64,000 nt of DNA, from assembly GCA_903813345.2 (NCBI GenBank), contig CAIIXF020000010.1, forward strand, positions 32,518,425 through 32,582,424, read 5' to 3'. The notes beneath the pieces were generated by a model. It did not search any database. It had not been told where the DNA came from and saw nothing but the letters and a program-made list of their open reading frames with translations. Source of the DNA: Owenia fusiformis. Taxonomy: Eukaryota > Annelida > Polychaeta > Sabellida > Oweniidae. The position numbers and the translations under genes were made by a program. Below are positions 2,426 to 61,678 of the stretch, piece by piece (position 1 is the first letter of the stretch; each line of letters opens with the position of its first letter).

Positions 2426-2589
2426 AGTCATATTTCCAAACATGGAATAAACTAAAATTAAGTGAAATATACGAGGAATTGAGTAAACAGACATGTAGAC
2501 AACACTTTATATTGTATAAAAATATCAAAAAATCAGTATGTTTATTCAAATTTTTAAGAGAAATCTTAGGAAATCAAAAAGCAGATGTC
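2426..2589 (-). repeat. CGTCTGC element, reverse, nearly full length
   Basis: GTCATATTTCC start and GCAGATG end, with the middle blocks GTAAACAGACATGTAG and TTTATTCAAATTTTTAAGAG. It accounts for the second half of the open frame at 2278-2655. Confidence 0.6.
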
Positions 2590-2914
2590 TGTTTTATTCA
2601 GGATGAGCACTTGATGCCAATTTCTACTTTATCTCATCGTATCCCATATATTTGAGCTCCAAATCTTAATGCTGTCTTTAATATCTCTGATATCTGGCTT
2701 TACATTAGCTCCCCACTTCACTTTGGCTAAATATAAAATAAAGAGCAAGTCAATTGCGTTTTTATCTGCATCTGATCACTCTCAGCGCATCGCAAATCTT
2801 GTATATTTAAGTATATCACATTATTCTTTAGGATGGCCACTCGAGGTAGATCTAAATATAAAGGAGATGTGGCATCCTTATCGCTCGAATGCGTGCTTCC
2901 ATTTTCACCCCGTC

Positions 2915-3068
2915 CTTGCTCAATTCTCTAAATTTCTCTTCAAAATTTGAATGAAATGTTTAATTTTTTGAGATTCCTATACAATTTTGAGTATGCACTA
3001 AATGCCGGTTGAGTCCATTTCTCAATTTTTCCTCTTCTTTGTACTCTATTTTTAAATTTAAAATATGA
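2915..3068 (+). repeat. CGTCTGC element, forward, tip lost
   Basis: TTCAAAATTTGAATGAAATG, TATACAATTTTGAGTATG and AAAATATGACG are kept; the CCGTCTGC tip is absent. Confidence 0.55.
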
Positions 3069-3565
3069 CGTCTTGAGAGTTTTAGATAGGATGCCCCCAT
3101 TATAATCATCTTGTTAGATTGATATCATAACAGCATGTTCTAGAAGCATCAAAAAGTAAATTTATTGGCCATTAAATTGAATGGATAGATTATCTACATT
3201 AGAGCTCTCAAGGTTCAACTAATCTCTACTTCTTTGAGAGGAGATAGTTCTAGATTTAAGATTAATGAAGTTTACTGGGATTAAAAATTGCCACTTGGCT
3301 TTCAGTTTTCAACTGGTTTATGTGTAGATTTCCTGTTTAGACTTTGAATGGAGACTTTAATTTAATTGAATTTCTGTGCTATTCATATCCTCAATTCCAT
3401 GCCTGTTAAGATAATTTCACTCGTATTCCTCATATTATCATGTCATTTCATCTTCTAAAAAACATAACCATGCTCTGCTATCTGAGCATCAGTTTTTCAA
3501 GAATATTCTCAAATATCAAAAAAATAAAATTAAGATAAATATTAGGGAAAAAGAAGAAATTTTGA

Positions 3566-4404
3566 TTAAAGGCCCCATCTAAAGTTTAAACCACTTTGGC
3601 TTATATTGTAGTCTTACCCAATGTTATCAAAGTGTGATATGTGAAACTTTTTTTTTTAATTTCAAAATGTGGTTTTTGATAGACTTTTTGTTCCAAAATT
3701 TGTGAATTTATTTAAAACCAACTTTTAGAGGTCACTCATATCTTCTAATTAGCCACAATTCATACCAATGCATAGCATTCATCCTCCCATGTTTTTTGCC
3801 GAAAATTTTTTAAAAATCGGTTCATAAATAAGCGAGAAATGAACTTATCAGTGCATGAAAATGGTTCTGAGAAAAATGCATTTCAAAATTTTAGTTCTCA
3901 TAGAAACCAATGGTACAATGATATCTAAAACATAATTTATTTTTCCTTTTAACCTGGTAAGACAATCAACATTGGTTTTTATGAAAGTCTAACATATTTA
4001 GAAAAGATTGACATCGAAAAAAAAATTTCAATTTTTTTCAAAAACTTTTTGGTACCTTAGTGACATCACTAATGTTTCAAAATATTTTTGATATGTTAAA
4101 ACATTGAAGTGGCCCATTAAATATGGCATTTTATTATTGAAATAGTGTGTCCTTTGTTCAACCTTTGCATTGGTGTTAAAAAGATAATCTTTTTTGAAAT
4201 GGATTAAGAAATATTTGATGATTAAGAAATTTCAACTTTTTATGAAAAATGGCGGGAAATTTGAATATTTGAGAAATGAAATGCTCACAACTTTTTTTTC
4301 CAAATTATTTTTTGTTCAAAAATCTCTAAAATCACTTTTTAAGTCCTGACAAATAGTAAATGAATGATAAAAAAATATTTTCAAACTTTAGACGGGGACT
4401 TTAA
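3566..4404. mobile_element. TTAA-flanked terminal-inverted-repeat element, about 0.84 kb, non-autonomous
   Basis: The left end TTAA then AGGCCCCATCTAAAGTTT mirrors the right end AAACTTTAGACGGGGACT then TTAA, 16 of 18 bases matching. Target duplication of exactly TTAA is the hallmark of piggyBac-superfamily transposition. The interior is AT-rich with several poly-T/poly-A runs and no coding frame, so it would need a transposase from elsewhere. Confidence 0.65.
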
Positions 4405-5340
4405 ACATCATGAAATAAAGTTCTATTTAGATGTCAGAAAATGTACCCACAATCTCAATGACATTGTTTACAAAGGCACAATTCTTGGAGTTTTTCTATT
4501 GTCTTTAAATGTTCTGTAGAAAATAAACTTTGGCATATTTCATGCAAAGTGGCAGTTTTATGACCTGTACTTTGAATGATTTTTATTTTTTCATCAAAGA
4601 TTACTAAAAAAGGATTATGCAAATATCGCTCATTATTATTTATTACGGGATTAAAATTTATATGTGGGTATAATTTATTTATAAGTTTCAAGAATGAAGT
4701 TTTTTGTAAAATTTATCACATCTAAGTTAATTAGATTTCCAGGAAAATGAGTCACAATGATGCAACATTAAAAAACAAAGTTCCTCAAACCCCTTCAAAC
4801 CATAGCAAAGATACATGTTATCAAAACAAAAGTACATAACACATCTCCTCTCATCCAGAAAGCTACAGAAATCTCTAGTAATTAAACTGCATATGAAGCT
4901 CTCTTTGGAAAGGCAAAACAAAAATATTGAGTATTGAATATATTGTCACATATTTAGAAATTGTCATTTCAAGAAGGGGCTAAGAGTCCCAGTCAGCTCA
5001 ATGTCACAAAGTGGTGAATTTACAAGTTTTAATAGGCCATAGGGTTGAAACACGATCTTTCCCCAATCAGATCTTATTCTTGAGAATAACAGAACATAAA
5101 AGATCTCTGCTTCTTATATTTCTATACTTTCGCAACATTTCTGATTTGCAAGCTAAATTTCACAAGATTCTCATCAATCCCATGTTTTATTACAATTAGT
5201 ATTTTGTTACTGTGATCTGATTGGTCGATAGTGATCATATGATCAATACAGGGTATCATGGGAGGAGTGATTAGTGAGTAAATTGCCACAGTCTTAGACA
5301 GAAAAATCTCATGCTGAAAATACTAATTAATCGATGAATA

Positions 5341-5487
5341 TTTCACAATTTTCTCTTCAATCTTTCACAAATTTAAACAATAATTTTCATTTCTGTAAAA
5401 TATAAAGTGTACCCTTCATATCTATCAACTTAACTCTTGCAAAATTTCTCTCTTTTTCACAATATTTCATGTTTGAAATCATGTCCT
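5341..5487 (+). repeat. CGTCTGC element, forward, heavily decayed
   Basis: TAACTCTTGCAAAATTTCTC and TTCATGTTTGAAATCATGTCC match the right half; the left half is barely recognisable. Confidence 0.35.
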
Positions 5488-6844
5488 AGTGGTTTTTTAT
5501 TCGTGGGAATGACAGGGATATGTTCACACCAGGCCTCTCTATTGCCTCAATATGTTTTATTTAAGAAACTAAATCTCGGCCACATCATGATTGAATTATG
5601 ATAGAACTTTGAAACCTGGTATATTGAACAAAAACATTAATCAGATTCAAATGTAACGCTAACAGCTTCTTTTTTCAACACGTCACATTTGTCAGTAATT
5701 TTTCATCCATTCTTGCACCATCAATTTAAATTTAAGAAATGCATTATATTTAGAGAAATGTCTGAAATGTTTTTGTTGATTTCGATCATTCGCTGTTGAT
5801 TTTCATTATTAAAAAGAAAAAGAAATACAACTTCTGTAGCGTTATATGAAGTACAATAATGCTTTAAGGTAAGATATGGAGAATAAATCACTCGGCTTGA
5901 ATACTTATAAATGCCTGTACACATGTCCAGAAATGATCATTCTGACCCCGCCTTAATTCATAAAAAATTGGAAAGTTAAGGAAAAAAGGAAAACCTCCGA
6001 GAATGTTTTCAATCTGAGAAAAGCAATAGTAGATGAAACGACTTCTTGGAATCAAAAACTAACGAGAAAATCTTTTTAATCAGTTAATACGGAAAAATAT
6101 ACAGCATTAAGAAATATAATATTTCAACTCGTCATTATTCTATCATTAAGACATATATGAAATCATTAGCAAAATAAAACCAGTTGCATATCATATCTCT
6201 TTCTCTAATGTTAATAGAATTAATATAAAAATGGAATTTTATTGTTTTAATATAACTTAGAGGTTAAGAAATAATAATAGCTGGAAAAAAGTGAATACTC
6301 AAAATGTATTTTACCGAATAACTAGTATTTTTTTAGTTCAAAAAATATGATTTTGATGCATTTTTATATAAATTGTAGAAGATCATCGAAACCATATTGA
6401 TGTGATTCTCCCGATTGGCCATTAAGTACTATCAATTTAATAGAACAAAACCCTCAGGGGATAGACGTCTCTTTTCATTAATAGTAATAATCGAATGTGG
6501 ACATTTTCATTAGGCCCCAACGAACCTAAAAACAATAGATGTTATAATAATTTGATAGAAAAATACACCATTGGGAATGGATTAATTTGATAGAGAGAGA
6601 TATTTCGGTACATTTTCACTATTAATCAGCATTTCATTTTTATTTAGAGAAATGTACTATTGGCATCATTTGGAATATATATGCAAATTTTGTGCATAAT
6701 TTGGATTATGTAGTTTTCGTGACATTTCATCATAAAAATGAGATTTCTATGAAACTAATTCAACAACAAGTGTGTGATGATTAGATTTTTTATTGTTCCT
6801 GATAATATCACCATGGGATAAAATGTAAATGTTTTTTTAGAGCA

Positions 6845-6992
6845 TAAAACAGATAAAAACGAAAGAATTAGCAAGAAATTATATACCTAAATGTGACATT
6901 CATATTCTAAAGTACATAAAACCAAAAGAAAATCTAACACTTTCTTCAAATTTTAGAGAGAAATTCCAAGAAATAAGCATATTGAGCAGACG
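6845..6992 (-). repeat. CGTCTGC element, reverse, one end lost
   Basis: GAATTAGCAAGAAAT, CTTCAAATTTTAGAGAGAAA and ATATTGAGCAGACG are present; the GGTCAT end is missing. Confidence 0.6.
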
Positions 6993-7786
6993 TCATTCAG
7001 TGATCAAGATTTCATCAAAAGTGATGATTTGCTTTGTCACACATTCTAAGCTCCTTTGTCTATATAACATTAAGATTTAAACAAATTGCTAGTAGATTCG
7101 CTTCCAATCTCAATGTCTTTGATACCCAAGCCGCCATATATCTAGATTTTACGGAGCATATTAATCCCAGATAGCCATTAAAGTTGAAATACTGTTTCCA
7201 AGAAATCCCCCATCAAAAAAATATTCGTCCTCGAACTTACACATTTTTAGTCATAACACATCAAATTGATTTTATTTCATGAATCTAATTTACTAATAGA
7301 CCAGGACTTGATTGTCACCCATATTTCTCATTTTCTTGCTTGATTGCGATACAGAGAATATGTCAGTTGATCTGGTTATTTATTCGCAAGGGGTGACTAT
7401 ATATGTGGGGTTTAGACTCATTGTTCTACTTGGATGTAGAGATTAAAGCTGAGGTTGGATATAACCTCGGTAAGATTATAAAAAAAATTATTACCGTCTT
7501 AATTATTATCTTCTTAAGGGTTTTGATGAGGATTATATTTGATTTACTATATACTAATTCTCATATTCTAGATTTTGGAAAGCATAAATTAACATACATC
7601 CACATGTTTAAGAATTATCGTAAATCTAGATCTGAGGATTTTGATGACGTAAATTGATATTTTTTCTGTTATAAGATTGACTGGCTGACATTAATTCATT
7701 TTTATAATGTGAGGGCATGCGTTTTGATAATGGTTATGTTTTAGCAAACTGCACCTGCCCCATTTTGGCTTTCCATGGCTTAATAT

Positions 7787-7952
7787 CCGTCTGCTTGTGC
7801 TTATTTCACTCAATTTCTCTCTAAAATTTGAATAAAGTGTTTCATATTTTTGCATTTTTATATTCTTTAGAGTGTCTGCTTCATGGCTATATACTTTATT
7901 CCATGCTAATTCCTCAATTTCTCTCAGTATTTCATGTTTTAAGACATGACCT
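7787..7952 (+). repeat. CGTCTGC element, forward, full length
   Basis: CCGTCTGCTTGTGCTTATTT to AAGACATGACC, with TCTCTAAAATTTGAATAAAG intact. Confidence 0.85.
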
Positions 7953-8051
7953 TAAGGATGTTCCATTCAATGGATGGCATGCAACTTCTTCATTTCTTTC
8001 AGTTTAAGATTGTCACATAACATTGTTCATTAATAATACCCAAGAAAAATG

Positions 8052-13855: not shown

Positions 13856-14172
13856 AATAACATGATCTTCAAAGAATATGAAATTCAATCAGATATGATA
13901 TTCAAACATTTTTCAAATGACATGATAGTTCAATAATATGATATTCAAATAACATAACATTCAAATAACATCATATTCAAATTACATAATATTCAAACAA
14001 CATGATATTCAAAAACATAGTCTACAAACGTATGGTATCCAAACAATATAATATTCAAACAATATGACATTCAAACAATACAACATTCAAACAATATGAC
14101 ATTCAACCAACATGATGTTCAAACAATATGACATTCAAACAATATGACATTCAACCAACATGATGTTCAAAC
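13856..14172. repeat. 15-16-bp minisatellite (CAATATGACATTCAAA type)
   Basis: About twenty degenerate units such as AACAATATGACATTCAA and CAACATGATGTTCAA run head to tail. The last units are the most alike, suggesting recent expansion at the right end. Confidence 0.85.
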
Positions 14173-27991: not shown

Positions 27992-28215
27992 ATTGAGTAC
28001 CATAAGCGAGGGTTTATATGTTGTTCTAATATCTCTCCTCTATCTACTATTAATTGAGTTAACCAAGTTACATCACTAATGAAATAGCTTTTAATTTGTT
28101 CCAGTCAAAACGAAAATAATCTATGGATTAACCCTGCTGGATTAATTGATTATGTAATATAGATTATGTATTATACATGTAGCTTATGCCAATGAATGAA
28201 GCAATGCCCATAAGT

Positions 28216-28242
28216 GCAGAGTCTAGTTCAACTACACTCTGC
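28216..28242. repeat. Near-perfect 27-bp palindrome upstream of candidate promoter
   Basis: GCAGAGT and TAGTT on the left mirror AACTA and ACTCTGC on the right around a single central C, with one mismatch. It lies about 30 bp before the GC box and could be a dimeric factor site or a small RNA hairpin. Confidence 0.45.
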
Positions 28243-28259
28243 CTAAAAGAGACCATATT

Positions 28260-28500
28260 ACAGTTTAGTAGCCCCGCCCCCACGACGAGTACTGGTGACA
28301 GTTTGGGTAATAAATCACTTGACCTACACGCTGACCTTTCTTCCACCAATCAGCGAGCTTGAAGGAAATACGCCAAATGCGTTCAAATTAAATATGCGCA
28401 TGTCATTGGTCAATTCCGGGCTCAACGATGATGTCAGAAGGAATGACCATATATAAAACGTCGGTCAAATTTGGCCGACGAACACTGATTTGCGCGGTGA
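28260..28500 (+). promoter_or_regulatory. Candidate RNA polymerase II core promoter inside the giant intron
   Basis: In order on the + strand: a GC box CCCCGCCCCC (28272-28281), a CCAAT box CCAATCAGCG (28346-28355), an inverted CCAAT box ATTGG (28405-28409) and a TATA box TATATAAAA (28450-28458). About 30 bases further, where initiation is expected, is AACACTG (28481 on). A consensus splice donor GCG/GTGAGT follows at 28497. A short inverted repeat, CGTCGG with CCGACG (28459-28464 and 28475-28480), lies between the TATA box and the inferred start. The segment is much richer in CpG than the intron around it. It could be an alternative promoter giving an ARID3 product with a truncated ARID, the promoter of a separate small gene or ncRNA, or that of a transposon or solo LTR. 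Confidence 0.45.
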
Positions 28501-29701
28501 GTTCACAGGTTTATTTTAGTTTGAAAGAGTGAAGACGAAGCTCTCTTTTAAGAAGTGAAGTCAAACGAATGCAAAGGGTAATGAAGCAAGTGAGTGCAAA
28601 TGCCAATAGCAGAATGAGAGCGAGAAGCTGTCAAAGAGTCGTCCGACTTGTTATTTGATAAAAAACAAACCCATATATCCCAAAAATGATGATGTCAAGC
28701 AGTACTAAGAAACAAATTTACCACATGACCTATGTATAGGAGACATTGTTTAGATGGGGTGATAAATTGAAGCTTTCAGGGGCACCGCATATGTTCAAAA
28801 TGATGTATATTTGACAAAAACAAAATCTATTGTTGGCATTTTATTGAAAAATAGACAGAAATAGGCTGAAAAATGTGCTGAACTTTTTTTTTGCACTGGT
28901 AACAATTTTAAGAAACAATATATAATCTGATCATGAAGTAGAACCATAACATGTGGAGATGATGCTTATTGTTATGATAGGATGGGAGGGGTAGGTGAGG
29001 AGTGGACGACATGTTGATGAGGGTGAAATTCAAATTGTCCATTTTAATTTACCAATTTATACCTTTCTTTCCCGATCTCTCTCAATTTCTGGACCCTTAT
29101 GGATTCAACATTGAGCTAAATATTTGTCTGGAATTGTAGAAATCTGCAGAAACAGTTGGTCCTGTTATCTCCCAATTCTTTCATTAATTAGTCGACATTT
29201 AATTAAGTCTTTAATTGAGAAATTCTCACCAGTAGAGTTCAACATTATGCGGAAATCAACAGACTAAACTTAAGATGGTTGAGAAGTTTGAACAAATACC
29301 TGGATGGGAATGATTTAATTAATTGATATTGCATAATTAGAAAGTGATTATTATCTCATTAATGTTTCATATGTTTAAAATAGATTAATTGGTATTGAAA
29401 TCAATTAAGTCAATTAATCCGTTTTCTATGATCACTTGTGTTTTATTTGAAGTTCAAATGTTTTCTCTCAATTTGATCCAACTACATAACCATAGAAAAG
29501 TATGGTGTGTATATTATACTCTAAGTTATGTTCCTTTGAACTGCTGTGATTTGCACTATTGATCAAAATATTAAAAATATACTAATTTTTGGATGATTGA
29601 ATCGTTATTTTATAAAAGAACAAAATTACAATATGACTCCAGATTGATTATATGAGTTTTTGTGGAGTTGTGTTTTCAAACTTTGTCATTTGTGCTTTCA
29701 A

Positions 29702-34004: not shown

Positions 34005-34169
34005 CCGTCTGCTCATGCTTATTTCACTCAATTTCTCGATAAAATTTGAATAAAGTGTCTGATTTTCTTGCATTTCTATACAATTTAGAGTGTTCACTAC
34101 ATGACTGTATATTTAATTTCTCCCTAATTCCACTCATTTCTACCCTATTTTGCATTTTAAAAGATGACT
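34005..34169 (+). repeat. CGTCTGC element, forward, full length, near consensus
   Basis: CCGTCTGCTCATGCTTATTT, GAATAAAGTGTCTGATTTTC, ACAATTTAGAGTGTTCACTA and CATTTTAAAAGATGAC. One of the best copies for deriving a consensus. Confidence 0.92.
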
Positions 34170-40214: not shown

Positions 40215-40300
40215 TAAGTTCAAAGAGAGAAATTAGCAGGGAATGATATGATTGAGACATGTAGTCATTAGTCATATACTCTATTGTGTTGACTACTGTT
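40215..40300 (-). repeat. CGTCTGC element fragment, reverse
   Basis: GAAATTAGCAGGGAATGATA and GACATGTAGTCATTAG are left, next to the 25-bp minisatellite. Confidence 0.4.
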
Positions 40301-40303
40301 TAG

Positions 40304-40626
40304 TTGGTTGTGTTAAAATTGTTTCAAGATGGTTGTGCTCTAATTGTGTTTTCGTGGTTGTGTTTAGATGGTTGTGCTCTAATTATGTTAAGGTAGTTGT
40401 GTCATATTTATTTTGAGATCGTTGTGCTAGAATTATGTTTAGATTGTTGTGCTATAATCATGTTAAGGTAGTTGTGTTCTAATTATGTGCAGATGGTTGT
40501 GATATAATTGTGTTAAGATGGTTGTGCTATAATTACGTTAAGATGGTTGTGCTATATTTGTATTAAGATGGTTGTATTTTAATTTTGTTTAGCTGTTTTC
40601 ATGTGATTTTGTTTTGATGGCTGTAT
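40304..40626 (+). repeat. About 25-bp minisatellite (GTTGTGCTATAATTATGTTA type)
   Basis: Roughly a dozen units of GATGGTTGTGCTATAATTGT with point changes, head to tail. The strand is strongly G/T-biased. It directly follows a decayed CGTCTGC fragment. Confidence 0.8.
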
Positions 40627-40795: not shown

Positions 40796-40913
40796 AATCT
40801 CCAAAATGTAGTATTAATTGCTTCTACATCAACTTATCTCCTGTTTCTAGCACCTTGTTTACAATTTCTGCTTTGATTTCATATTATTTAAATATTCTTA
40901 GAGGATCATGTTT

Positions 40914-41042
40914 TAAATTGCAAAATAAAGCAGCAAAAAGGATGAAGATCACGGAATAAACTAAACAGGTGTGTAGTCAACATTTTAAATTGTATAGAAA
41001 TGCAAGAATTTCAAACATTTCATTCAAATTTTAGAGAGAAAT
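40914..41042 (-). repeat. CGTCTGC element, reverse, first of a tandem pair
   Basis: GATCATGTTTTAAATTGC to AAATTTTAGAGAGAAAT, then joined directly to the next copy with its tip missing. Confidence 0.75.
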
Positions 41043-41173
41043 AAAAGGAATTGGCAAGGATTAAAATAGCCACACATGTAGTAGACACTCTAGATTGTAT
41101 AGAAATGCAAGAAAATCAGACACTTTATTCAAATTTTAGAGAGAAATGACACGATATGTGCATGAGCAGACGG
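41043..41173 (-). repeat. CGTCTGC element, reverse, second of a tandem pair
   Basis: It starts within the element at AAAAGGAATTGGCAAGG and ends GTGCATGAGCAGACGG. It shares a 47-bp identical stretch with 37941-37987. Confidence 0.8.
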
Positions 41174-47221: not shown

Positions 47222-47699
47222 AACTCCTTTGGGCAATACCAAGGGAGAAAATGTGAGGGTATATTACTCCTTCTAGCAATAGCAAGGGAGAAAACATTTG
47301 GCTTTACTACTCCTTTAAGCAATACCAAGAAAAAATGTTTGGGTATATTACTCCTTTAAGCAATACCAAGAAAAAATGTTTGGGTATATTACTCCTTTAA
47401 GCAATACCAAGGGAGAAAATGTAAGGGTATATTACTCCTTTAAGCAATACCAAGGGAGAAAATGTTAGGGCGTACTACTCCTTTAAGTAATACTAAAGGA
47501 GAAAATACTTAGGGTATATTACTCCTTTAAGCAATACCAAGGGAGAAAATGTTAGGGCGTACTACTCCTTTAAGTGATACTAAGGGAGAAAATACTTAGG
47601 GTTATTACTCCTTTAAGGAATACCAATAGAGAAAATGCTTAGGTATACTTCTCCTTTAAACCAACAGAGAAAATGCTGGATATACTACCCCTTTAAGCT
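47222..47699. repeat. 43-bp minisatellite (ACTCCTTTAAGCAATACCAA type), about 11 units
   Basis: Units run ACTCCTTTAAGCAATACCAA, then GGGAGAAAATGTTAGGG, then TATATT. Alternate units share variants (GGGCGTACT versus GGGTATATT), so part of the array grew in two-unit steps. It begins about 55 bp after the exon B splice donor. Confidence 0.9.
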
Positions 47700-49207: not shown

Positions 49208-49443
49208 AACCTTTGCAGGTTGTGACATTGCTATTGTGGGGCGATTGGTGTTCGGCAGCTTGGTATTCAACATTTGGCGTCTGTAACAAATGACTGTAGC
49301 ATTTTGCATTTTAATAACTTTTTCTAAGACTATTGCCAAGAGGTTACCATTGGGAGTCAGTGTTTGGAACCCTGATATGAAAACACTTCCCGATTGAATT
49401 TCCCTTTTCTGAAAATATGACTCAAGTTTTTTTTACCTTCCAG

Positions 49444-49649
49444 GTACATGAAATACCTCTACCCTTATGAATGTGAAAAACTTAAACTCAGTTCACCAAC
49501 TGAGCTTCAATCTGCCATCGACGGCAACAGAAGAGAAGGACGTCGCCCAAGTTACGGCTACGACCTCTCCCCCGGGGCACCTACCCTCCTCTCCCCCTCC
49601 CCCCATCACATAAATGGACTTTTCAACGGCCACTCAAGACATACTGTGG
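49444..49649 (+). CDS. ARID3: ARID3/dead ringer exon C: end of extended ARID and start of linker
   Basis: Residues 86 (shared) to 154 are encoded, starting YMKYLYPYECEKLKLSSPTE and then LQSAIDGNRREGRRPSYGYD. This is the C-terminal helix of the extended ARID typical of ARID3 members. A Ser/Pro/His-rich stretch follows (SPGAPTLLSPSPHHINGLFN) that begins the poorly conserved linker. The acceptor is a pyrimidine tract ending TTCCAG at 49443. The donor is GG/GTAAGT after 49649. Intron phases on both sides match the neighbouring exons (2 before, 1 after). The RREGRR segment is basic and lies where family members have DNA-contacting or nuclear-localising residues; that role is inferred here. Confidence 0.96.
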
Positions 49650-50927
49650 GTAAGTAGTATACACTTTTATACTCAGAGTTTTTCATCGACTTAATTTATC
49701 GTGATTTACATTAATTGTTATGTCTGAGTTAAGTCTTAAATGTGCAATATATTTGGATCGCCTGTCAATTGGCATATTGTTGTTGCGAAACTTTAATTAC
49801 CCCATATATATATGTAACATCTTATACTTTCGTAGAGCAAAACAAACTTATGTACAATAAAGATATTCCACTTTTGTATGTACATTATAGTTATGTATTC
49901 AATTAAAACTTTAAAATTAGAAATCGCAGATAAATAATTATCGAAATCGACCAATTATTACAGAAAATGAAACCAATGAATTAAAATGTGACAAAAGACG
50001 TAAAGTTTTAACTATCAAAGCTAGAAGTGGCGATCGTTGTCACATTCTCGATTTTACGAGAGATTCATCTCACATATGATTAATGGATAAGACACTGTCA
50101 TGTACAGTCTTTCAATTTTGAATAATTGTTTTAACTTTTCTGTTACGTTTCGACCTAGTTTCAAAGTAATTGTGTATTTTAAGTCAGTTAAAATTATGTT
50201 CAATCATGGCCATGGTTCAGTTCAGTTTCTCATAGGAGGTCTTATTGGTTTAATTAATTTTACTATTATTATTTTATTGTTTTAATGATTAAATTTTGGG
50301 TAAAAGTACCTGATTTTTGCATTTAGGATAAAATAGTTACTGTGTATGATTAGATTTACAATAATTACAATCGACATCCCAGAGGATCTAACAATGTTAT
50401 ACAATTTAGAACCTTGACGTACGTAATTTAATGTCCATTTTATAAGGCTTCTCTCCTTCCTCTGTTAATACGTCAACGTTTTTTTTATCTCCTTGAAAAC
50501 TAGATGAGAAATTATAATTGTATTTTGAACCGACCCTGTCTGAGTTGAGAAAATGCATTACTTTTTGAGTACTTGATGTTTGATCTATTGATTGTTTAAC
50601 CTCTTGAATTCCAGTCTCTAAAATCGGTTGAAACCAGAGAATTTTTCATTTTTGCCACCTTTTGATATTTAACTACATTCATATACAACTTTAGATGCTC
50701 AACTTAGTAAAATCAGACGGCGGAGATAATTTCTACAAATTCTAAAATAAGTTTTGTTTAAATTGGATGAAAATTGTTTAGATAAGAGCAATTTTAGTGA
50801 AAGATTTTGTGATGGATTTTCTCGTCACCCTGGGTTTCAAGGTCATTTCTGAGGTGACGAGATATCTCGTCACTCCAGGTAGTCAAGAGGTTAATCAAGG
50901 TTTAATTTTACGATTGTTTTGTTTTAG
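49650..50927 (+). other. ARID3: ARID3 intron between exons C and D
   Basis: A phase-1 intron of 1278 bp, GTAAGT to TTTTAG. It is free of recognisable repeats and genes apart from a weak stretch near 50395-50490 that faintly resembles the right half of a CGTCTGC element. Confidence 0.85.
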
Positions 50928-51047
50928 GTACACCCCCCATGATGCCACCAATGGCCCATCACCATCACCCGTCATTGATGAATGGCCTCCATCATCCCAG
51001 TCATCCAACCCCCATACACAACCGACCACGTAGCACAGGGTCATCAG
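50928..51047 (+). CDS. ARID3: ARID3/dead ringer exon D: His/Pro-rich linker
   Basis: A small exon encodes residues 155 (shared) to 194: TPPMMPPMAHHHHPSLMNGL followed by HHPSHPTPIHNRPRSTGSS. It is low-complexity, rich in His, Pro and Met, with no fold expected, and belongs to the variable linker between ARID and REKLES in this family. It is placed in the gene because the frame continues exactly: G from exon C plus GT gives Gly, and its last G plus AT of exon E gives Asp. The acceptor is TTGTTTTGTTTTAG ending at 50927. The donor G/GTATGA after 51047 is weaker than the others, which could permit skipping. Skipping would keep frame because the exon is 120 bases with phase-1 introns on both sides. 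Confidence 0.88.
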
Positions 51048-51254
51048 GTATGACAAGAAAGATATTCGCTAAAATTCCATGACATGAAAATATGCTCTAA
51101 ACTTTTATTTCGAAGAATAATAAAATATCTACAAATTAAACTGTATTCTGAAGAATTATCTTCAATTAATTCTCACATACGAACTTTCTTAAATTATATT
51201 GAGTGTATATTTTCCAAAATTGTGTGGTATAAAATAGCTTAAATTAGGTGACAG

Positions 51255-51394
51255 TAATGCCTGGGTCACATTTGCTCCGATCCATCGGCGGCGCCGATTG
51301 AGTGTTTTGTTCAATATTGTATTCAATTTTGAACAAAATACTCAATCGCCCGGGCGCCGTAGTGAAAATCGGAGCACATGTGACCATGGCATTA
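51255..51394. mobile_element. Near-palindromic MITE, copy 1 (140 bp, TA-flanked)
   Basis: TAATGCC-x-GGGTCACATTTGCTCCGAT on the left mirrors ATCGGAGCACATGTGACC and GGCATTA on the right. Inside, GATTGAGTGTTTTGTTCAA mirrors TTGAACAAAATACTCAATC. The entire element can fold on itself. A TA at each edge fits Tc1/mariner-type target duplication. GC-rich patches (GGCGGCGCCG and GCCCGGGCGCC) stand out in AT-rich intron. Confidence 0.8.
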
Positions 51395-52021
51395 ATGAAT
51401 GTATAAGTGTCAATTTTGTGTACGGAAATGTATTCTAATACGACAATGAATGGAATATATGTATTTATATATGACACCTTCCTGCATGCATCTAACTGAC
51501 ACCATAGTGTTTTGCTTTGCATAATTATTATGAAAAAGTCTTTTGACTGGAATAAACATACCTTCTTGAAAGGTATATATCCCACAAGGATTCAGATTTC
51601 ATCTTAAAATATGGATTTAGGTCGATAAAATGTATGACAGAAAATAAAATTTCTATCAATTGTTCAGTGATGGAAAAGTAACATATTTTTATTACTTTCA
51701 CGATGAGAGAATTAATTCCGATGTCATTTTCATCGTAACGTCGCAATGATTTACAGCATTTATCCCAATAAGAAACTATTATGAGGTTGATTGCTGAATA
51801 GAGAAATGGGAATTTGAAGTGTAAACCCATATTAATGTAATCACGTCCTTAATTAAAACATATTAAAAGTATATCTAAAAAGCCAAAGTAATGTTCGCTA
51901 TTGGAGAAAATGTCAGTTTAATAGAAGGAATTGTTATTAACCATTTCATTTAATGTTCATTGCATATAATATAACTGTTAAAGAGATTGTAACAATAACT
52001 TCAACCCGCCACTCAAAATGT

Positions 52022-53345: not shown

Positions 53346-53487
53346 TTCATTGCTCTTTAAAATTTGAATGAAGTGTTTGATTTTCTTGCATTTCTATATA
53401 ATTTAGAGTGTTCACTACATGCCTGTTTACTTTATTCCTTGCTAATTTCACTCTTTTCTATCCTATTTTAGATTTTAAAACATGACC
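53346..53487 (+). repeat. CGTCTGC element, forward, tip lost, near exon E
   Basis: CTTTAAAATTTGAATGAAGT to GATTTTAAAACATGACC; otherwise close to consensus. It ends about 110 bp before the exon E acceptor. Confidence 0.82.
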
Positions 53488-53597
53488 ATGTTTCTTTTGT
53501 CCCCCCAATCTTGACCATATTTTGAATTTCAAACACTACTCCTTTTATAAAACCCATATCCAGTCCCCCCCAGTAAATAACATGTATATATTTACAG

Positions 53598-53975
53598 ATG
53601 ATAACCGTAGCCCTAGCCCACCTTCAACACCTAGTCGTCTGCAGCAACAACAAGCACTACACAGTTTAACAGAGCGGGACGCTATCGCGATGGAAGCAGC
53701 GTCACGTGCGATGGAAGAAGCTACTCGTAAAATGGAAATGGCGTCACGTGTTGCACTAGAACGTGCAGCTGAACGAGCGACAAGTACAAATTCTAATGAA
53801 CATACTTCGTCACATAAACGACCAAGCCCATCATGTAGTCCAAAATCTGAAGATAATAGAAAAAGCGACCCCGAAATTGATGAACCATCACCGAAAAAGA
53901 TGGCGCTAGCAGAAGATGAAAGGTTATTATCACACGTAGGAATGAACAATGCCCATCTGAAAATTACAAGTCGAA
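53598..53975 (+). CDS. ARID3: ARID3/dead ringer exon E: charged helical segment and degenerate REKLES-alpha
   Basis: The exon encodes residues 195 (shared) to 320. After a Ser/Pro stretch (DDNRSPSPPSTPSRL) and QQQQ, residues of about 218-255 form an Ala/Glu/Arg/Met-rich stretch with strong helix propensity (ERDAIAMEAASRAMEEATRK onward). A polar region (SSHKRPSPSCSPKSEDNRK) follows. Then DEPSPKKMALAEDERLL aligns with the family block around EP-x-x-KKMAL that follows the REKLES hexapeptide. The hexapeptide itself is not recognisable (RKSDPEID in its place). The acceptor is ATATTTACAG. The donor CGAA/GTAAGT follows 53975. The frame stays open to a stop at 54146-54148, so intron retention would add about 57 unrelated residues. 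A GA-rich composition makes this the most codon-distinct exon. A CGTCTGC element ends about 110 bp upstream. Confidence 0.95.
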
Positions 53976-55458
53976 GTAAGTATAGAAGGAGTTCACGTAA
54001 AATGTTATTGTATCCATGTTTCACCTCATTGTATCCATATTCCACCTTATTGTATCCATGTTTGATATTAAGTGGAATGAATGAAATGTGGATTAAACAA
54101 AACCATTACAGTACCTTATCTACTGTAACAATTGACGCCAAGAAATGAAATAACATGGAAATAACATGGAACAAGAATGAACCAAGTAACATTGTATTCA
54201 TTTTTATTTTCATGGAAAAATGTCTCTTGTGTTTATTTGCTTTTATCTCTGACATTTTAACAACTATTTACGATTTTCTTTCCAAATAAAATCAAAAAAT
54301 TCACTTTATTTTTTGCTGATGTCAAAACATGAACCTGTAATAATTTATTTATAGGTCACTGTGTTGATTGACTGTTCATTATAAAAAAGAAGATATAAAT
54401 GGTCTCTGATATGTCCTGTTGACAAATTATAACGATTTGATCGCATGGAACATCGATGTTGGGATTCCCAATCTGATTAAGATCTACCAAATGGCGGAAG
54501 TACCAGCCACTTATTTTCCTGAATCTGCCGAAATTACCCATCTCCAAAGAAAATTTATCTACTAATTATATTAGATGTTGGCGGTGAACACGACATTTTA
54601 GATTGAATATTGGTTGCGTCCAATTTCTCTTTTTTGATCAATCAATTTATTTAATTTTTTCGAGCTTGAAAACATATGCTCTTTTGGCGAGGGTGATTTA
54701 TCAAAAGAACTAATTAAAATTGCAAAATTTCTTTAGAAATGACCCATTACTTTTATGAATTTGGCCAAAAGCTGTAAATGGCCAAAGGGTTCGTTAACAT
54801 CTAAAGTTATGTGAAAAATAAAACAAATCTTTGAACGTAAAGTCGTAAATTTGCATCAACTTGCGATTAATCACTTTGAAATAACATTGAAGATTTTCAA
54901 CTCTTCCCTTTCAAAATATCCCTCGGAAAAACAATTGAAATAATTCTATGAATCGGAAATTATTATATGCTGAATTACCACAAGATCATTTTATATTTTA
55001 ATATTATTCAGTTTTTATTCATATCTTTATATGAATGCATAATAGTATTGAATTTTAAGTGATTTTTATGAAAAAGTTCAAAATTTTGTTTTAAAGAATT
55101 CAATTAATCATTGCCCCAAATCTTATGTCGATGGATTTCCCGAGAAGCTTTTTGGCCTAAAGGTGATGTGTACAAATGAGCACATTAATTAGATAAAATT
55201 AGACTTTAATGACCACGTACCTTTCCCCTTTCTAGTCACTCCTAAACCGAGGGTTCACTATACAGATTAAGAACCAATCAAAATGTAATTAACCTTTTTG
55301 TTCAGATCAAATACACGTCCTTGACGAATACAGATTCACTTTCGGGATAATATTAGATCAATTTGTTCCGTCATTTGATTTATCCGATTTATTTTTCTTT
55401 AGTTGTTTAATACATATCTCCTCCATCAATATCTGTGTACTTATAAAAAAGATTGAAA

Positions 55459-55737: not shown

Positions 55738-56007
55738 CCGTCTGCTTTTGCAGATTCCTTTATTATTTCATTATCTTGTATCTGATCAGTATCTGATTTT
55801 CTTGCATTTTCATACAATTTAGAGTGTTCACCACATTCCCATTGACTTTATTCCTTGCTAATTCCTCTAATTTCTCTCTAAAATTTGAAAAAAGTATCTG
55901 ATTTTCTTACATCTTTATACAATTTAGAGTGTTCACTACATGCCTGTTTACTTTATTCCTAGCTAGCTTCATACGTTTCTACTTTATTTTGTATTTTAAA
56001 ACATGGA
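55738..56007 (+). repeat. Two CGTCTGC elements in tandem, forward
   Basis: The first copy has CCGTCTGCTTTTGCAG and runs to CTTTATTCCTTGCTAATTCC at about 55863. The second starts without a tip at TAATTTCTCTCTAAAATTTG and ends TATTTTAAAACATGG. Confidence 0.8.
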
Positions 56008-56505: not shown

Positions 56506-56651
56506 CAGTTAATTTTTCTCTAAAATTTGAATAAATTGTCTGATTTTCTTTCATTTCTATACAATTAAGAGTGTTAACTACATGCCTATTTACTTTATTC
56601 CTTGCTAATTCCACTCCTTTTCACTTTATTTTACATTTTGAAACAAGACCA
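56506..56651 (+). repeat. CGTCTGC element, forward, tip lost
   Basis: TTTTTCTCTAAAATTTGAAT to CATTTTGAAACAAGACC. Confidence 0.8.
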
Positions 56652-57729
56652 TGTTTCTTTTATTGAGCCTGTATTCAGTTAACATTAATAATACCCAGAC
56701 AAGGGTGAAATTTACATCGGACATTAAAAAATGAAAGTTTTATGGAAGTATCACATGAATAGATAAAAGGTAATCACCAGAAAATTTCATGACTTTCTTG
56801 AATGAAGATACTACTGGCCTATTAGATATCTTGATTAACTGGTTTCAAACATGAACTGAAAACTCTCAATAGAACAAACACGTCTTAGAGTGAGCATAAA
56901 CACCCTTATATAAGTGAACACCCTCAAAGAAAGAAGGTTTTGAACATAGCTATAAGGCTAAACTCTTTAATTGAGTGTTGTTAATATCTTTAGCCAGTCT
57001 ACAAGTTGAACTCCCTAAATTCAAAAATGTTAAAAAGTTACTTAAGTTTTAAGGACTGTTTTTGCTTATATTGGTTTTATAAAAAAACATATGTACGTGT
57101 ATTGCACAGGAGATTACCATTTAACCAAAACTAGGATGATTTCAGTTTTATCAAAGTTAGAAAATAAACAATAAATGAATGAATAAATAAGTACCAGTTT
57201 ATTTTTTGAATTATTAGATCTCTCTATTTGCTCCTAGTTATGATATAGACGTTATAAAACATCAATGCGCTGCTTGAACCATCGTTAATTAAACAGATAC
57301 GAAGTTGTAAACCCCGCAGATGTATCTGATACAATAACAGAGCTTTATAAAAAACACGAAATAAAAAATCAAACGAAGAAAATTGATATGTTGCTATAAT
57401 TGCATTAACAAGTGAAAGATAGATTTTTATGTATCAATTTAATTCTGCTATCATATTTATGGATGATGTTCCAAAGCTGAACTGGTACAAGATTACGAGA
57501 AATGTAAACCGATTCGCAGGTGCGCAAGGCTAAACAATATCTTCAGTTAATTGTATATAATTTATAATTTCACTTCCCCAGGCTACGACTTTTATAACGA
57601 GACCAAAAATCAAATATCAAAAAACTAACTGGTTTTATATTTTTTATTTTTCTAATTGAGACCTCATTTTGAGCTGTATTTAAATTTTTTATCAAAAGTC
57701 AATTGTAGTTGGTTTAATGGAATATTGCT

Positions 57730-57752
57730 CGAAGCAATATTTTCGGTTTCAG
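57730..57752. repeat. Short perfect palindrome AATATTGCT-CGA-AGCAATATT
   Basis: Nine-base arms around CGA, about 110 bp before a reverse CGTCTGC element. It could be a factor-binding site or a chance hairpin. Confidence 0.45.
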
Positions 57753-57860
57753 TTCTATTGAAACAAGAGAATCTCTTCTTGTGGTAGGAACTATCATTAT
57801 ATGCTTTTTATATCAACTATAATGTCTATAATGTCTTCACGAGCAATAATTTATCAGCAC

Positions 57861-58024
57861 GGTCATATTTTAAAATCCAAAATGCAGCAGGAGAGAGTGG
57901 AATTAGCAAGAAATAAAGTAAATAGGCATGTAGTCAACACTCTAAATTGTATAGAAGTGCAAAACAATTATACAATTTATTCAAATTTTAGAGAGAAATG
58001 AGTGGAATAAGCATGAGCAGACGG
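57861..58024 (-). repeat. CGTCTGC element, reverse, full length, near consensus
   Basis: GGTCATATTTTAAAATCC, TTAGCAAGAAATAAAGTAAA and AAGCATGAGCAGACGG. It faces a forward copy 68 bp away, forming a large inverted repeat. Confidence 0.9.
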
Positions 58025-58092
58025 ACATTATTCAACGAGGGTAGATGACTCTATTAACTAAGATAAGGCACCTGCTTCAACTTGCACTAATG

Positions 58093-58240
58093 TCGTCTGC
58101 TCATGCTAATTACTCTCCATTTCTCTCTAAAATCGAATAAATTGCCTGATTTTTCTGCATCCTTTTACAATATAGAGAGTTAGTTTTATGTTTATTAACC
58201 TCATTCCTTGGAATTTAATTTATGGTTACACTTTTCTTCA
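58093..58240 (+). repeat. CGTCTGC element, forward, right end diverged
   Basis: TCGTCTGCTCATGCTAATTA and CATTTCTCTCTAAAATCGAA. Confidence 0.75.
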
Positions 58241-59454
58241 GTTAAAGGTGTTTATATATTGGGTTGTAAATATATACCCATAATATGTGTGGTAATTTAG
58301 GTATACATATACAGAGAATATACAGTTATCTAAAAATAGAAATATATATATTCCAATTATCTATATAATTTACTTTGAATACAGTGGAGTTATATATTGT
58401 TTAAATTTCATGGTGATTCAGTTTAAAATCTATTTTTAAGAAATATCCATTTGAGCCTATTGTGATGCTTGAGAGTCCAACGACCTTTGGACTATAGCAC
58501 TTATTCAAAAATTGACAAAAATCGTCATCATTATATTGATTAGAAACATGTACTTGTGGATATTACATGGTTATCTTTTTTATCAATGGGTGCTAAATCC
58601 TAATTTTATATTCCCTGTTTTGTCAAAAGAACTCAATATACATCATTTTTACATGGTGTAAACATATTTTCAACAGATCTACATGCCATTTTCACGCAGC
58701 ACCCCATTGCACTAAATCCGGGGAGACATCGCAGTAATTTTGGAGATTCAATTTCAAAATTGAAATTGAAAAATGACTTCATGCACTGAAGAAATTAAGC
58801 CTGTTTCCAGTAATACTTAATGTCATGATTTTTAGCATTGATTTACTATCTGTTTTTACAATGCAGAGTTAATTATAGGTGAATATATCCCAATTTGCCT
58901 CGAGACAAATGACTGTGATTTAAATTATGCAGATCTCTTATTTGTTATAACTAAGAAAGACCTAAAGGCATAGTAAGGCATTAATATCACATAAAAAGAC
59001 AATATAAAAATTAAATCCTTTCAAAGAATTTCAAAAACTTGGAATTGATTCAAATTCCTGTTCGTATACCACCCAAGTAAAAGCAACATCTCAGGGTCTA
59101 CTGGCTAAATATACAAAAATATTTTTTATCGAAAAATAATTTTTGTGATTTTTTTTCGAGTGATATCATAATTATGTTAATTAGGAAGGGTGAATCCTAC
59201 AGGTGGTTTTCTGATATCCCGTTACTTTAGAATTTTAATATGATCGTAAAAGTTTAAAATGAATTTTTGCTAGAGGCTTAAGTGATGTATGGATTATGTT
59301 AAAGTAAAAACATAATACAGTCATCTATAATGTGGTTATTAATGTCTTTGTGGTATTAACAAATCCCGACTTGTGAAATATTAGAAAAGTAGAGACATTT
59401 AAATGATTTTTTATAATTTGAAGAATGTATTTTGATTCATCTTCAGGATGTATA

Positions 59455-60013
59455 AAAGTGAATATACTAGAAGTGGTACTTTTGTTAGTAAGAATCATAG
59501 TACCTCTTTAATGTGTAGCCATATGGATCATAGTGCCTCTTTAATTATGATAGACAACAAGAAGAAAGAAATACTCTTTAGCTATCAATGGTTATAATGC
59601 CACTTTAAGATTTACATTGTTTCATACGGTAGTGGCACTTTAATATGAATATTTTTTTTCCATAATCATCATAGTGGTACTTTAACATTAGAGAAAGAGA
59701 AGAAATAAATATTTCCTATGAGCTGTCAATGGTGATAATGCCACTTTAAGATGTGTATTTTTTTCCATTTCTTAGAGTGATACCTTAATGTAAATGTGTT
59801 TTTATCCATAATCATCAAAGTGAAACTTGAACATAAGACTAAGAGAAAAAATAAATACTTGCTATAAGCTAACAATCGTCATAATGCCACTTATAAATGT
59901 ACATTTTCTGTTTTGCATACTGACACTTTAATATGAATTTTTTTTCATTTTCATCATAGTGGCACTTTAACATTAGACAAAGAAAAGAAATAAATATTTG
60001 CTATGAGCTATCA
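59455..60013. repeat. Tandem array of about 140-bp units (ATAGTGGCACTTTAACATTA type)
   Basis: About four units share TCATCATAGTGGCACTTTAA, then AGAAATAAATATTTGCTATG and ATAATGCCACTTTAAGA. Anchors fall near 59675, 59815 and 59953. TAGTGGCACTTT and ATGCCACT are in opposite senses inside each unit, so units can form hairpins. Confidence 0.75.
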
Positions 60014-60105
60014 ATGATTAGTACATTTATAGTGATGGATATATTAGCCCCTAGTGATCAATTTAATGGTATTATACTTAGTGTTCAAAACGTTTACCAA
60101 AATGT

Positions 60106-60268
60106 CCGTCTGCACATGCTTATTTCACTCATTTCTCTTTAAAATTTGAATAAAGTGTCTCATTTTATGAGATATATACTAAATCTGAGGACTTAACTAC
60201 ATGCTTGTATATTTTTTTCCTTGTTTATTTCTCTAGTTTTATTAATTTTTCAATTTTGAAATGAGACC
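60106..60268 (+). repeat. CGTCTGC element, forward, full length
   Basis: CCGTCTGCACATGCTTATTT to AATTTTGAAATGAGACC. It is the last intronic copy, about 360 bp before the exon F acceptor. Confidence 0.82.
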
Positions 60269-60411
60269 TCATGATTTTTTTAATGGGGGTCATCCACTTT
60301 ATCTTTTGTGATACACCTGTTGAATGTAATTGAAATAGAAAATGTTTCTAATAATATTCATATCAAAATGAATGACAAAAAGTGTATTGTGAACAAAACA
60401 AGCAATAAAAT

Positions 60412-60456
60412 GAACAAACAAACAAACAAGCAAGCAAACAAGCAAACAGACAAACA
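60412..60456. repeat. AAAC / AAGC microsatellite near the last acceptor
   Basis: AAAC units grade into CAAG and CAGA variants, about 170 bp before the exon F acceptor. Confidence 0.8.
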
Positions 60457-60629
60457 TGCAAGAAGTCAACAGTCAAGATTGTAATAGTGTATTAAAAACG
60501 CAACATTTTGACACTTAATAATGAGTATTTCTGTATACTACTATTTTTAAATCTTAAAGATTTTGAAAATGTTCTTGTGTTTTTGTAAAATTGTATTTTT
60601 GCTGATTTTTATGTTTGCTATATTTTCAG

Positions 60630-60733
60630 GTGACGGGAAATCAGACTTCGACAATTCCTTAGTAATCAGCATGGAGATAAATGGTATAATGTATCAAGGG
60701 GTCCTATTTGCACAAGCTCCAAGAAGACTTTAA
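60630..60733 (+). CDS. ARID3: ARID3/dead ringer terminal exon F: REKLES-beta and stop codon
   Basis: The exon encodes residues 321 (shared) to 354 and the stop TAA at 60731-60733. The peptide SDGKSDFDNSLVISMEINGI continues MYQGVLFAQAPRRL. The SMEINGIMYQGVLFAQ part is the conserved REKLES-beta block of ARID3 proteins, reported in the family to support self-association and nucleo-cytoplasmic shuttling. The acceptor is GCTATATTTTCAG ending at 60629. The protein stops five residues after the domain, whereas vertebrate ARID3 proteins usually carry a longer low-complexity tail. A PUF-type TGTAAATA lies 27 bases past the stop. Confidence 0.96.
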
Positions 60734-60759
60734 GACTCCTTAGAATAGCTATAAACTTT

Positions 60760-60767
60760 TGTAAATA
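60760..60767 (+). promoter_or_regulatory. PUF/Pumilio-type element TGTAAATA in the 3' UTR
   Basis: The octamer TGTAAATA matches the Pumilio-family recognition core and sits 27 bases after the stop codon, a favourable place for translational control. A single 8-mer in AT-rich DNA can arise by chance. Confidence 0.3.
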
Positions 60768-61255
60768 ATGTATCAATGGATGAAAACCCACACAAATGTA
60801 GATGAAACCCTCCCAAATAGGCCAAAACCTACCTAAATATGAATAATATGAGGAGAAAGTGTCTCTCTGTGTTAAAGGGAGTAACATATTCATGTCAAAA
60901 AACTGAAGTGAGAAGCGAGGGTGACTTATATGCCACCACTAAAAAGTAGCGACATATCGTTAAAGCCGCCATTTTTATGAATGGTGTTGGTGTCTATACG
61001 CAACAATTGTTGCACATTTGTATTTTTGAGTTAAGTATTGGTCAGATGCCTTGGAACTTATACTGAGAACACGTCTTCGAGTGTTGTAATTCTAAAAGTG
61101 ATACATAGCAATATCTGTAACCATGGCAATGAATAAGGGGACTTTTGTGCAACCAGGTGATAACTGTTCGTTGTTTTTTTGTATTATTTCACCAGCATCT
61201 ATGAATGTTCATCTCTCTGATTAGCTTGTATAATTCAAAATATGCCATCTCAGAA

Positions 61256-61390
61256 TACAGTAAAACTTGTAAATTGAATACTATTTGGAACCTCTAAAAT
61301 GTTTCAGGTTCATTGAACATTGATCGAAAACGTAAACACTATGTAAACTTTTCATTTAACTGAGCTGTTCCACTTACTGTGTCCCACTTA
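61256..61390 (+). mobile_element. pogo/Tigger-like terminus in the ARID3 3' region
   Basis: TACAGTAAAACTTGTAAATT is followed by GGAACCTCTAAAATG and a later CTGTTCCACTTACTGTGTCC, related to the sequences at 24230 and 42625. It probably sits within the transcribed 3' UTR. Confidence 0.3.
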
Positions 61391-61571
61391 ACAGTTTTTG
61401 CTGAAGTATGATATTTTTTCAATTAAAATACAAGTTATACTCTGAGATGAAACATTTTGAATTAAACATGATATTCAGCAATATGTCATTTGCCAACAAA
61501 AACAGTGGAATACAAATACTTAAATTGTCATCATCGTTATATTATAAACTTCAAATATAAGAAATGTTGCG

Positions 61572-61678
61572 AAGGAATTAGCAAGAAATAGAGAGAAAAT
61601 ACAGAAAATGCACACATTTAATTGTATTGAAATGTCAAAAAAAGGATGCCAATCACATTAAAGAGAGGAATCTTGAGA
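61572..61678 (-). repeat. CGTCTGC element, reverse, decayed, in the 3' UTR region
   Basis: GCGAAGGAATTAGCAAGAAA and TTAATTGTATTGAAATGTC are recognisable. Confidence 0.4.

Follow-up and report, generated by a model that had tools for sequence, protein, structure and literature searches.

A short repeat crowded into sharp genomic blocks of the annelid Owenia fusiformis is probably an old MITE-like mobile element with an expandable, A/T-phased core

The window analysed here, a stretch of 64,000 nucleotides from Owenia fusiformis (contig CAIIXF020000010.1; C10:32518425-32582424), is saturated with a single short repeat family. With a probability of roughly 0.6, we interpret the repeat as an old, non-coding, non-autonomous mobile element of approximately 203 bp, resembling a miniature inverted-repeat transposable element (MITE), with an expandable core and most likely inserted only in certain chromatin domains. 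A mobile origin is indicated by inverted repeats, tandem core arrays, random orientation and spacing, the lack of grouping by cluster and the decay with age of both conserved and free alignment columns. Short mobile elements are expected to be scattered or to accumulate in heterochromatin, whereas here one old family reaches 56 copies per 64 kb in a developmental-gene stretch carrying a dead ringer/ARID3 homologue. If the blocks in which it is crowded are chromatin domains, the element would record where a transposase could land; if they are ancestral linkage groups, it would mark chromosome history.

An iterated nhmmer profile, seeded with one window copy (within copy 32, 34007..34167), gave 57 matches in the window at E<=0.01. 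Of these, 56 had E<1e-4 (28 on the plus and 28 on the minus strand), and the 57th, on the minus strand at 40221-40270, was weak (E 0.003). Neither the reversed window nor any of 10 first-order Markov shuffles yielded a match, and the family in the window is real. The original prediction had placed about 57 copies, 28 forward and 29 reverse, which is matched when the weak minus-strand match is included; its picture of one family saturating the locus at about 1 per 1.1 kb likewise agrees with the mean spacing of 1,075 bp. The coefficient of variation of the spacing (0.78; null mean 0.83, standard deviation (SD) 0.11) was no more regular than random, and neighbouring copies agreed in strand in 23 of 55 cases, not different from random orientation. 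Both ends were present in 35 of the 56 copies, while 15 lacked the head and 8 the tail, two of these lacking both. Truncation at the tip, once proposed to be part of how the element spreads, is unsupported, as ends are lost on both sides. The copies are given below in window positions with profile scores in bits; copies without a remark carry no note of end loss.

2428..2584, minus strand, copy 1, 86 bits
2914..3068, plus strand, copy 2, 93 bits
3326..3462, plus strand, copy 3, without head, 51 bits
5385..5483, plus strand, copy 4, without head, 41 bits
6834..6991, minus strand, copy 5, 72 bits
7789..7949, plus strand, copy 6, 117 bits
8064..8176, minus strand, copy 7, without head, 47 bits
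8836..8986, plus strand, copy 8, 96 bits
9351..9511, minus strand, copy 9, 124 bits
9597..9731, minus strand, copy 10, without head, 62 bits
12250..12401, minus strand, copy 11, 43 bits
12932..13084, minus strand, copy 12, 84 bits
15529..15689, minus strand, copy 13, 127 bits
17050..17210, minus strand, copy 14, 124 bits
17592..17749, plus strand, copy 15, 102 bits
18461..18570, plus strand, copy 16, without tail, 67 bits
18894..19049, minus strand, copy 17, 100 bits
19415..19561, plus strand, copy 18, 77 bits
21503..21635, minus strand, copy 19, without head, 45 bits
22053..22210, plus strand, copy 20, 67 bits
22446..22606, plus strand, copy 21, 84 bits
23722..23856, minus strand, copy 22, without head, 87 bits
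27397..27536, minus strand, copy 23, without head, 60 bits
27829..27989, plus strand, copy 24, 115 bits
29893..30010, minus strand, copy 25, without head, 58 bits
30839..30997, plus strand, copy 26, 94 bits
31522..31682, plus strand, copy 27, 102 bits
32111..32203, minus strand, copy 28, without head, 34 bits
32775..32934, minus strand, copy 29, 115 bits
33056..33200, plus strand, copy 30, 41 bits
33744..33863, plus strand, copy 31, without both ends, 48 bits
34007..34167, plus strand, copy 32, top score of the window, contains the search seed, 141 bits
35623..35782, minus strand, copy 33, 102 bits
36222..36382, minus strand, copy 34, 86 bits
37821..37981, minus strand, copy 35, 120 bits
38695..38850, plus strand, copy 36, 65 bits
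39647..39807, plus strand, copy 37, 86 bits
40906..41043, minus strand, copy 38, tail and second core unit of a 105-bp tandem pair with copy 39, 91 bits
41046..41171, minus strand, copy 39, head and first core unit of the pair with copy 38, 108 bits
41407..41557, minus strand, copy 40, 74 bits
43765..43924, plus strand, copy 41, 89 bits
44583..44722, minus strand, copy 42, without head, 72 bits
45491..45592, plus strand, copy 43, without tail, 66 bits
46356..46517, plus strand, copy 44, 125 bits
48740..48833, minus strand, copy 45, without tail, 30 bits
52024..52182, plus strand, copy 46, 91 bits
53342..53485, plus strand, copy 47, without head, 117 bits
55465..55613, minus strand, copy 48, 100 bits
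55740..55872, plus strand, copy 49, head and first core unit of a tandem pair with copy 50, 62 bits
55869..56005, plus strand, copy 50, tail and second core unit of the pair with copy 49, 105 bits
56130..56288, minus strand, copy 51, 90 bits
56493..56648, plus strand, copy 52, 117 bits
57863..58022, minus strand, copy 53, 124 bits
58095..58216, plus strand, copy 54, without tail, 73 bits
60108..60261, plus strand, copy 55, 80 bits
61573..61682, minus strand, copy 56, without both ends, 38 bits

Flank profiles showed that conservation extends outward on both sides, low and fading, and then stops. Realignment of 47 full-length copies (18 from the window and 29 others) gave an extended consensus of 203 columns, CCC...GGG, which is AT-rich, short, non-coding and below the coding size of a transposase. 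The bounds first proposed, TCCGTCTGC...CATGACC at 165-172 bp, were too short, as the extended consensus adds approximately 15 bp at the head (to CCC) and approximately 22 bp at the tail (to GGG). Head and tail together make up an imperfect inverted repeat, ACCCTTAACTAAAATGTCC... versus ACCCATAAATAAAATATC..., with 23 of 32 positions matching and a terminal sequence that is ACCCTTAACTAAAATG-like; the outermost part lies within the added bases, and the earlier statement that terminal inverted repeats are lacking has to be revised. Over 35 positions, 25 matches were counted against a maximum of 23 in 300 shuffles. Moreover, when column-frequency profiles were tested, the identical placement of the inverted repeat ranked 1 of 3,888 whether the full set of 47 copies was used, only the 18 from the window or only the 29 from elsewhere. 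The consensus tail, ATCATGAT, examined for a 3' palindrome, consists of weak columns (0.33-0.67). Beyond approximately 20 bp on either side, no shared flank sequence was found among 70 heads and 54 tails, so the copies do not appear to be fragments of one long transposon, one of the findings that had been named in advance as refuting the original prediction.

An internal core unit of 105 bp forms short tandem arrays at several places in the genome. Four matches exactly 105 bp apart were found at C4:4239983-4240321 and likewise at C4:22502540-22502878, and five matches with spacings of 105, 105, 105 and 104 at C4:4240013-4240454. Further arrays were located on C4 (26.97-26.98 Mb), C12 (10.463 Mb) and C7 (36.872 Mb), and also on C10 and C2. 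Two tandem core pairs lie in the window (40906-41171 and 55740-56005), where most copies have one core unit. Here and below, C1-C12 and the like denote large contigs of the searched genome (498 Mb, 525 contigs), C10 being 37.5 Mb and C1 62 Mb long; the published assembly is summarised as 505.8 Mb with 12 chromosome-scale scaffolds (PMC9977687).

For the history of the copies, 127 of 139 matches (those covering approximately 100 or more model positions) were aligned. With neighbours within 700 bp left out, only 9 of the 127 had their nearest relative in their own cluster, compared with a mean of 25 and a maximum of 43 after shuffling, and the top identity between dispersed copies was 94%. Linkage between variants was absent, with 10 pairs at r>0.3 compared with 11.2 in permutations (125 copies), and shared non-consensus states were at the permutation level (3.76 versus 3.69-3.81). 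Local hopping or segmental duplication within clusters was rejected, because the copies neither group by cluster nor share variants beyond column frequencies. In the 36 copies nearest the consensus, 34 columns were invariant (2.9 expected) and 18 were variable in more than a quarter of copies (0.5 expected). Window and other copies agreed in their column conservation (r 0.76 once base means were removed). When columns were chosen in one copy set and tested in the other, the slope of decay with age was 0.52-0.54 for conserved and 0.72-0.92 for free columns, and extrapolation of the slopes, uncorrected for noise in the age measure, put free columns at approximately 13-17% variant at zero age. 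In our reading, the free columns already varied in the source pool, their variants being unlinked, and the copies then decayed in a mostly neutral way under at most moderate constraint. Strong purifying selection on every copy was weakened by the same test, since conserved columns also decay with age, and is kept only as a rival.

The A/T content of the consensus is phased with a helical period. Its top power was at 10.5 bp (9.6; 95% of shuffle maxima below 7.0), and column information also peaked there (8.4 versus a threshold of 7.4), with the plain conserved fraction below its shuffle threshold (6.2 versus 6.7). In the copies, four-base A/T words recurred at lags of 10, 20-21 and 31, with on/off ratios of 3.36 in window copies and 3.26 in other slices; AAA/TTT gave weaker ratios (2.05 and 2.31, respectively), and outside copies and in background the ratio was 1.02-1.07. 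Phasing reached 5.28 in copies of 18-24% divergence, compared with 3.94 under uniform decay (SD of medians 0.46), and 4.65 compared with 2.76 in copies of 24-30% divergence (SD of medians 0.41). Below 18% divergence, phasing was not in excess of the simulation. Within one base class, helical phase explained little of the conservation (R2 0.02-0.21).

Genome-wide, the repeat is strongly enriched in the window. Of 209 exact genomic occurrences of the 15-base head, 9 fall in the window, an enrichment of 335-fold over the genome mean; for the core 24-mer with at most one mismatch the counts are 677 and 19 (218-fold), and for the 23-base head 102 and 3 (229-fold); two internal 23-24-mers gave lower enrichments of 21-fold (one window match) and 82-fold (three window matches). 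Scaling the 56 window copies by these pattern ratios gives 1,300 to 5,301 genomic copies for four patterns and 20,664 for the pattern with a single window match, and first-look candidate counts were 2,423 and 2,584; the genome copy number is an order of magnitude only. Twelve 8-kb slices chosen at match clusters contained 67 copies in 96 kb, and twenty random 3-kb pieces contained one weak copy in 60 kb. Among the 100 of 102 matches of the 23-base head that were listed, the end of C10 (28.1-37.0 Mb) accounted for 56 and C4 for 23, while each of the ten remaining large contigs had 1-5, with 1 on C1. Pattern matches were also clustered on C2, C3 and C5-C9.

Around the window, the outermost copies found were at 32,509,926 and 32,656,512 on C10, giving a block of approximately 147 kb. 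Outside it, 15 of 16 3-kb pieces were without copies, the remaining one, at 31.5 Mb, carried one copy, and an 8-kb piece directly to the right carried none. The sampled parts of the block were sparser than the window, with 4 matches in a 10-kb piece from the left edge, of which two were separated by 43 bp, and 0, 2 and 2 in 3-kb pieces; the zero-copy piece (L045) was mostly occupied by another tandem repeat. Seven additional exact heads lie at 32.593-32.653 Mb, in the unsampled part of the block. The leftmost copy is located between two open frames (approximately 32.5055 and 32.511 Mb), which we take, on reading by eye, to be exons of one WD-repeat gene, UTP15-like.

This confinement is the main puzzle, and it may be due to chromatin-targeted insertion, to the survival of old DNA with newer DNA in between, or to derivation from a single ancestral chromosome. 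On C10, long open frames numbered 12.5 per 100 kb between blocks versus 4.7 in blocks, some of the former appearing gypsy-like by eye. The CpG ratio was 0.43 in blocks, 0.71 in C10 pieces between blocks and 0.48 in random pieces. CpG differences are to be expected, because DNA methylation in Owenia fusiformis is described as mosaic and gene-body (PMC11292947), and the ratio does not decide the cause of confinement; CpG depletion itself was rejected, as many copy-free random pieces were also CpG-poor. Developmental gene deserts were rejected as well, since 139 homeobox matches were not centred on the clusters in a by-eye comparison without a statistic. A run of 12 homeobox matches at C1:17.97-18.96 Mb, all on the plus strand, had no listed repeat-pattern match, a few matches lay near repeat clusters (C4:11.75, C5:13.88 and C8:31.16 Mb), and 6 of the 139 were on contigs beyond C12. 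One cluster slice (L011) contains spectrin exons: Pfam searches of 13 open frames gave only spectrin repeats, in two frames, both in this slice. Cross-matches of other repeats comprised 73 rows among cluster records (160 kb), 37 mixed rows and 8 within background (60 kb), that is, approximately 1.3-1.5 times as many per pair of bases, an excess judged too small for a shared set of other repeats to be the cause.

In the mechanism that we favour, a putative transposase or rolling-circle enzyme would have moved the element in trans, with the inverted repeats, and possibly also the A/T-phased core, as its recognition sequence. Copies would have been drawn from a source pool in which free positions were already variable and variants unlinked, transposition would have been rare or absent since long ago, and the inserted copies would have decayed largely neutrally. 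Insertion would have occurred only into certain chromatin domains, the window block being one such domain; this is the weakest step.

Several observations weigh against a mobile element. Sharp block edges are unusual for a mobile family, as is the absence of subfamilies (no shared-variant structure in about 125 copies). In the older half of the copies, 25 of 145 columns were at least 90% conserved (3.4 expected, maximum 8) and 16 were below half conserved (1.6 expected, maximum 5), far more uneven than uniform decay; simulated uniformly decayed copies were still detected in 59 of 60 cases at 30% divergence and in 37 of 60 at 35%, so within the main range the unevenness cannot be put down to detection. 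Over 30 positions, the inverted repeat had 22 matches, equal to the maximum of 300 shuffles (22), and its outer parts are weak, the consensus base having a frequency of 0.30-0.60 in the outermost 10 columns at either end. Two tests, the first on 28 of 64 copies with both end marks and the second on 19 of 64 with both ends called, detected no target duplication above permuted pairs, as had been noted from the start for a constant duplication; the ends are eroded. In addition, a neighbour-masked search of the sampled sequence found no empty site for 141 copies, its three matches being overlaps between sampled pieces.

The sharp edges, the reproducibly uneven columns (r 0.76) and the 10.5-bp phasing, present in consensus and copies, missing outside them and held above the uniform-decay prediction in both older divergence classes, would also suit host DNA elements serving a chromatin task. 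A parallel would be the PATCs (periodic An/Tn clusters) of C. elegans, which are often intronic and whose phased A/T tracts keep a germline domain open; the block would then be a functional domain. We consider this quite unlikely. The inverted repeats and tandem core arrays point to a mobile origin, the conserved columns still decay with age (0.52-0.54 versus 0.72-0.92), helical phase accounts for little conservation (R2 0.02-0.21) and the plain conserved fraction stays under its threshold at 10.5 bp (6.2 versus 6.7). Copies below 18% divergence have no phasing excess, and PATCs are not known to derive from a single sequence. The phased A/T tracts may still serve the host, although the age decay of the conserved columns weakens this idea.

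A similarly small chance is given to the repeat marking pieces of one ancestral chromosome or arm, later split by rearrangement and new DNA and now mostly at the C10 end and on C4, an account that is compatible with the mobile element preferred here. The distribution of the listed heads (56 of 100 in C10:28.1-37.0 Mb, 23 on C4, 1 on C1) and the sharp sampled block edges, the left one between the presumed WD-repeat exons, are consistent with it, and the pieces between blocks on C10 are richer in long open frames and CpG, as if younger. However, clusters also occur on C2, C3 and C5-C9, and CpG is almost as depleted in random pieces from other places (0.48) as in the blocks, though these pieces have hardly any copies (1 in 60 kb). 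Taken broadly, a repeat with helical phasing and a frequently intronic position could define or record chromosomal domains with sharp bounds, either as a chromatin element common to many separate gene loci on a few chromosomes or as the paint of an ancestral chromosome that has since been split up and invaded by new DNA; this is an unlikely but somewhat less distant prospect. A retroposed RNA element, that is, a short interspersed nuclear element (SINE) without a recognisable promoter, would fit a length of approximately 200 bp and dispersed copies on both strands and is highly improbable. Rfam gave 0 matches at gathering score, ARAGORN predicted 0 tRNA genes in the window (no dedicated box A/B scan was run), and none of 8 predicted RNA pairs had a compensatory change in 22 copies. 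The 3' flank profile of 54 copies contained no A-rich or simple-repeat tail, in line with the lack of an A-tail reported earlier; no duplication was found, and terminal inverted repeats are present.

Compared with known systems, the repeat resembles tandem-repeat MITEs and HINE elements (Cg_HINE of oyster; Pearl) in its short, non-coding left and right modules around a tandem core, its inverted repeats near the ends and the lack of a detected duplication. The Cg_HINE elements of Crassostrea gigas are non-autonomous Helentrons whose cores are given as predominantly 140-180 bp, in a report whose title calls them dispersed throughout the genome (PMC7492417). In contrast, the Owenia core unit is 105 bp, most window copies have a single unit, and copies are crowded in sharp blocks. 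HINE has subterminal inverted repeats and a short 3' palindrome; in Owenia, the inverted repeats were located at the very ends of the consensus, and the tail columns are weak. HINE inserts at TT without duplication, and for the Owenia repeat no duplication was found. With cut-and-paste MITEs it shares a length of approximately 203 bp, lack of coding capacity and terminal inverted repeats starting with CCC, but it has no demonstrable target duplication or subfamily structure. Because no target duplication could be shown, the superfamily is not nameable. The original prediction held that the repeat fits neither a standard MITE nor a SINE; the second half stands, no SINE feature having been found, and the first does not, given a short, non-coding element with terminal inverted repeats, though no target duplication was detected. 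PATCs have a helical period and an uneven distribution, represent a compositional pattern rather than one repeat family and protect genes from germline silencing. The Owenia repeat shares with them A/T runs phased at approximately 10 bp, but it is one repeat family. In C. elegans, PATCs are described as periodic An/Tn runs in introns (PMC7725773).

The window also contains part of an ARID3/dead ringer gene, because an open frame at 49421-49654 (plus strand) matches Drosophila dead ringer (1kqq, E 6.5e-17) and human ARID3A (2kk0, E 5.1e-14). Two further plus-strand frames, 50906-51079 and 53486-54148, are presumably additional dead ringer/ARID3 exons, read by eye from their high GC and family resemblance. 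None of these three frames had a Pfam match.

Near the block, a 502-residue open frame just left of its edge (L043:1495-3000; C10:32.5065 Mb) appeared Mab-21/cGAS-like by eye, and long frames outside the block (two at L039:1608-2999, C10:32.35 Mb, and L052:489-2999, 33.0 Mb) likewise resembled gypsy-type retrotransposon polyproteins by eye. Other repeats in the window include inverted copies at 51257-51399 and 63630-63778, which also match background piece L023 and are therefore not block-confined. A 367-bp segment at 28214-28580 has two counterparts in L005, at 1673-2034 (92% identity) and at 7615-7954 (87% identity), and represents a repeat common to C10 and C4. Additionally, the following tandem arrays were observed.

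13862-14172, 16-bp unit, approximately 20 copies
40327-40592, superimposed arrays with units of 25, 39 and 75 bp
47223-47659, 43-bp unit, approximately 10 copies
59551-60015, 146-bp unit
62583-63054, 167-bp unit, 96% matches

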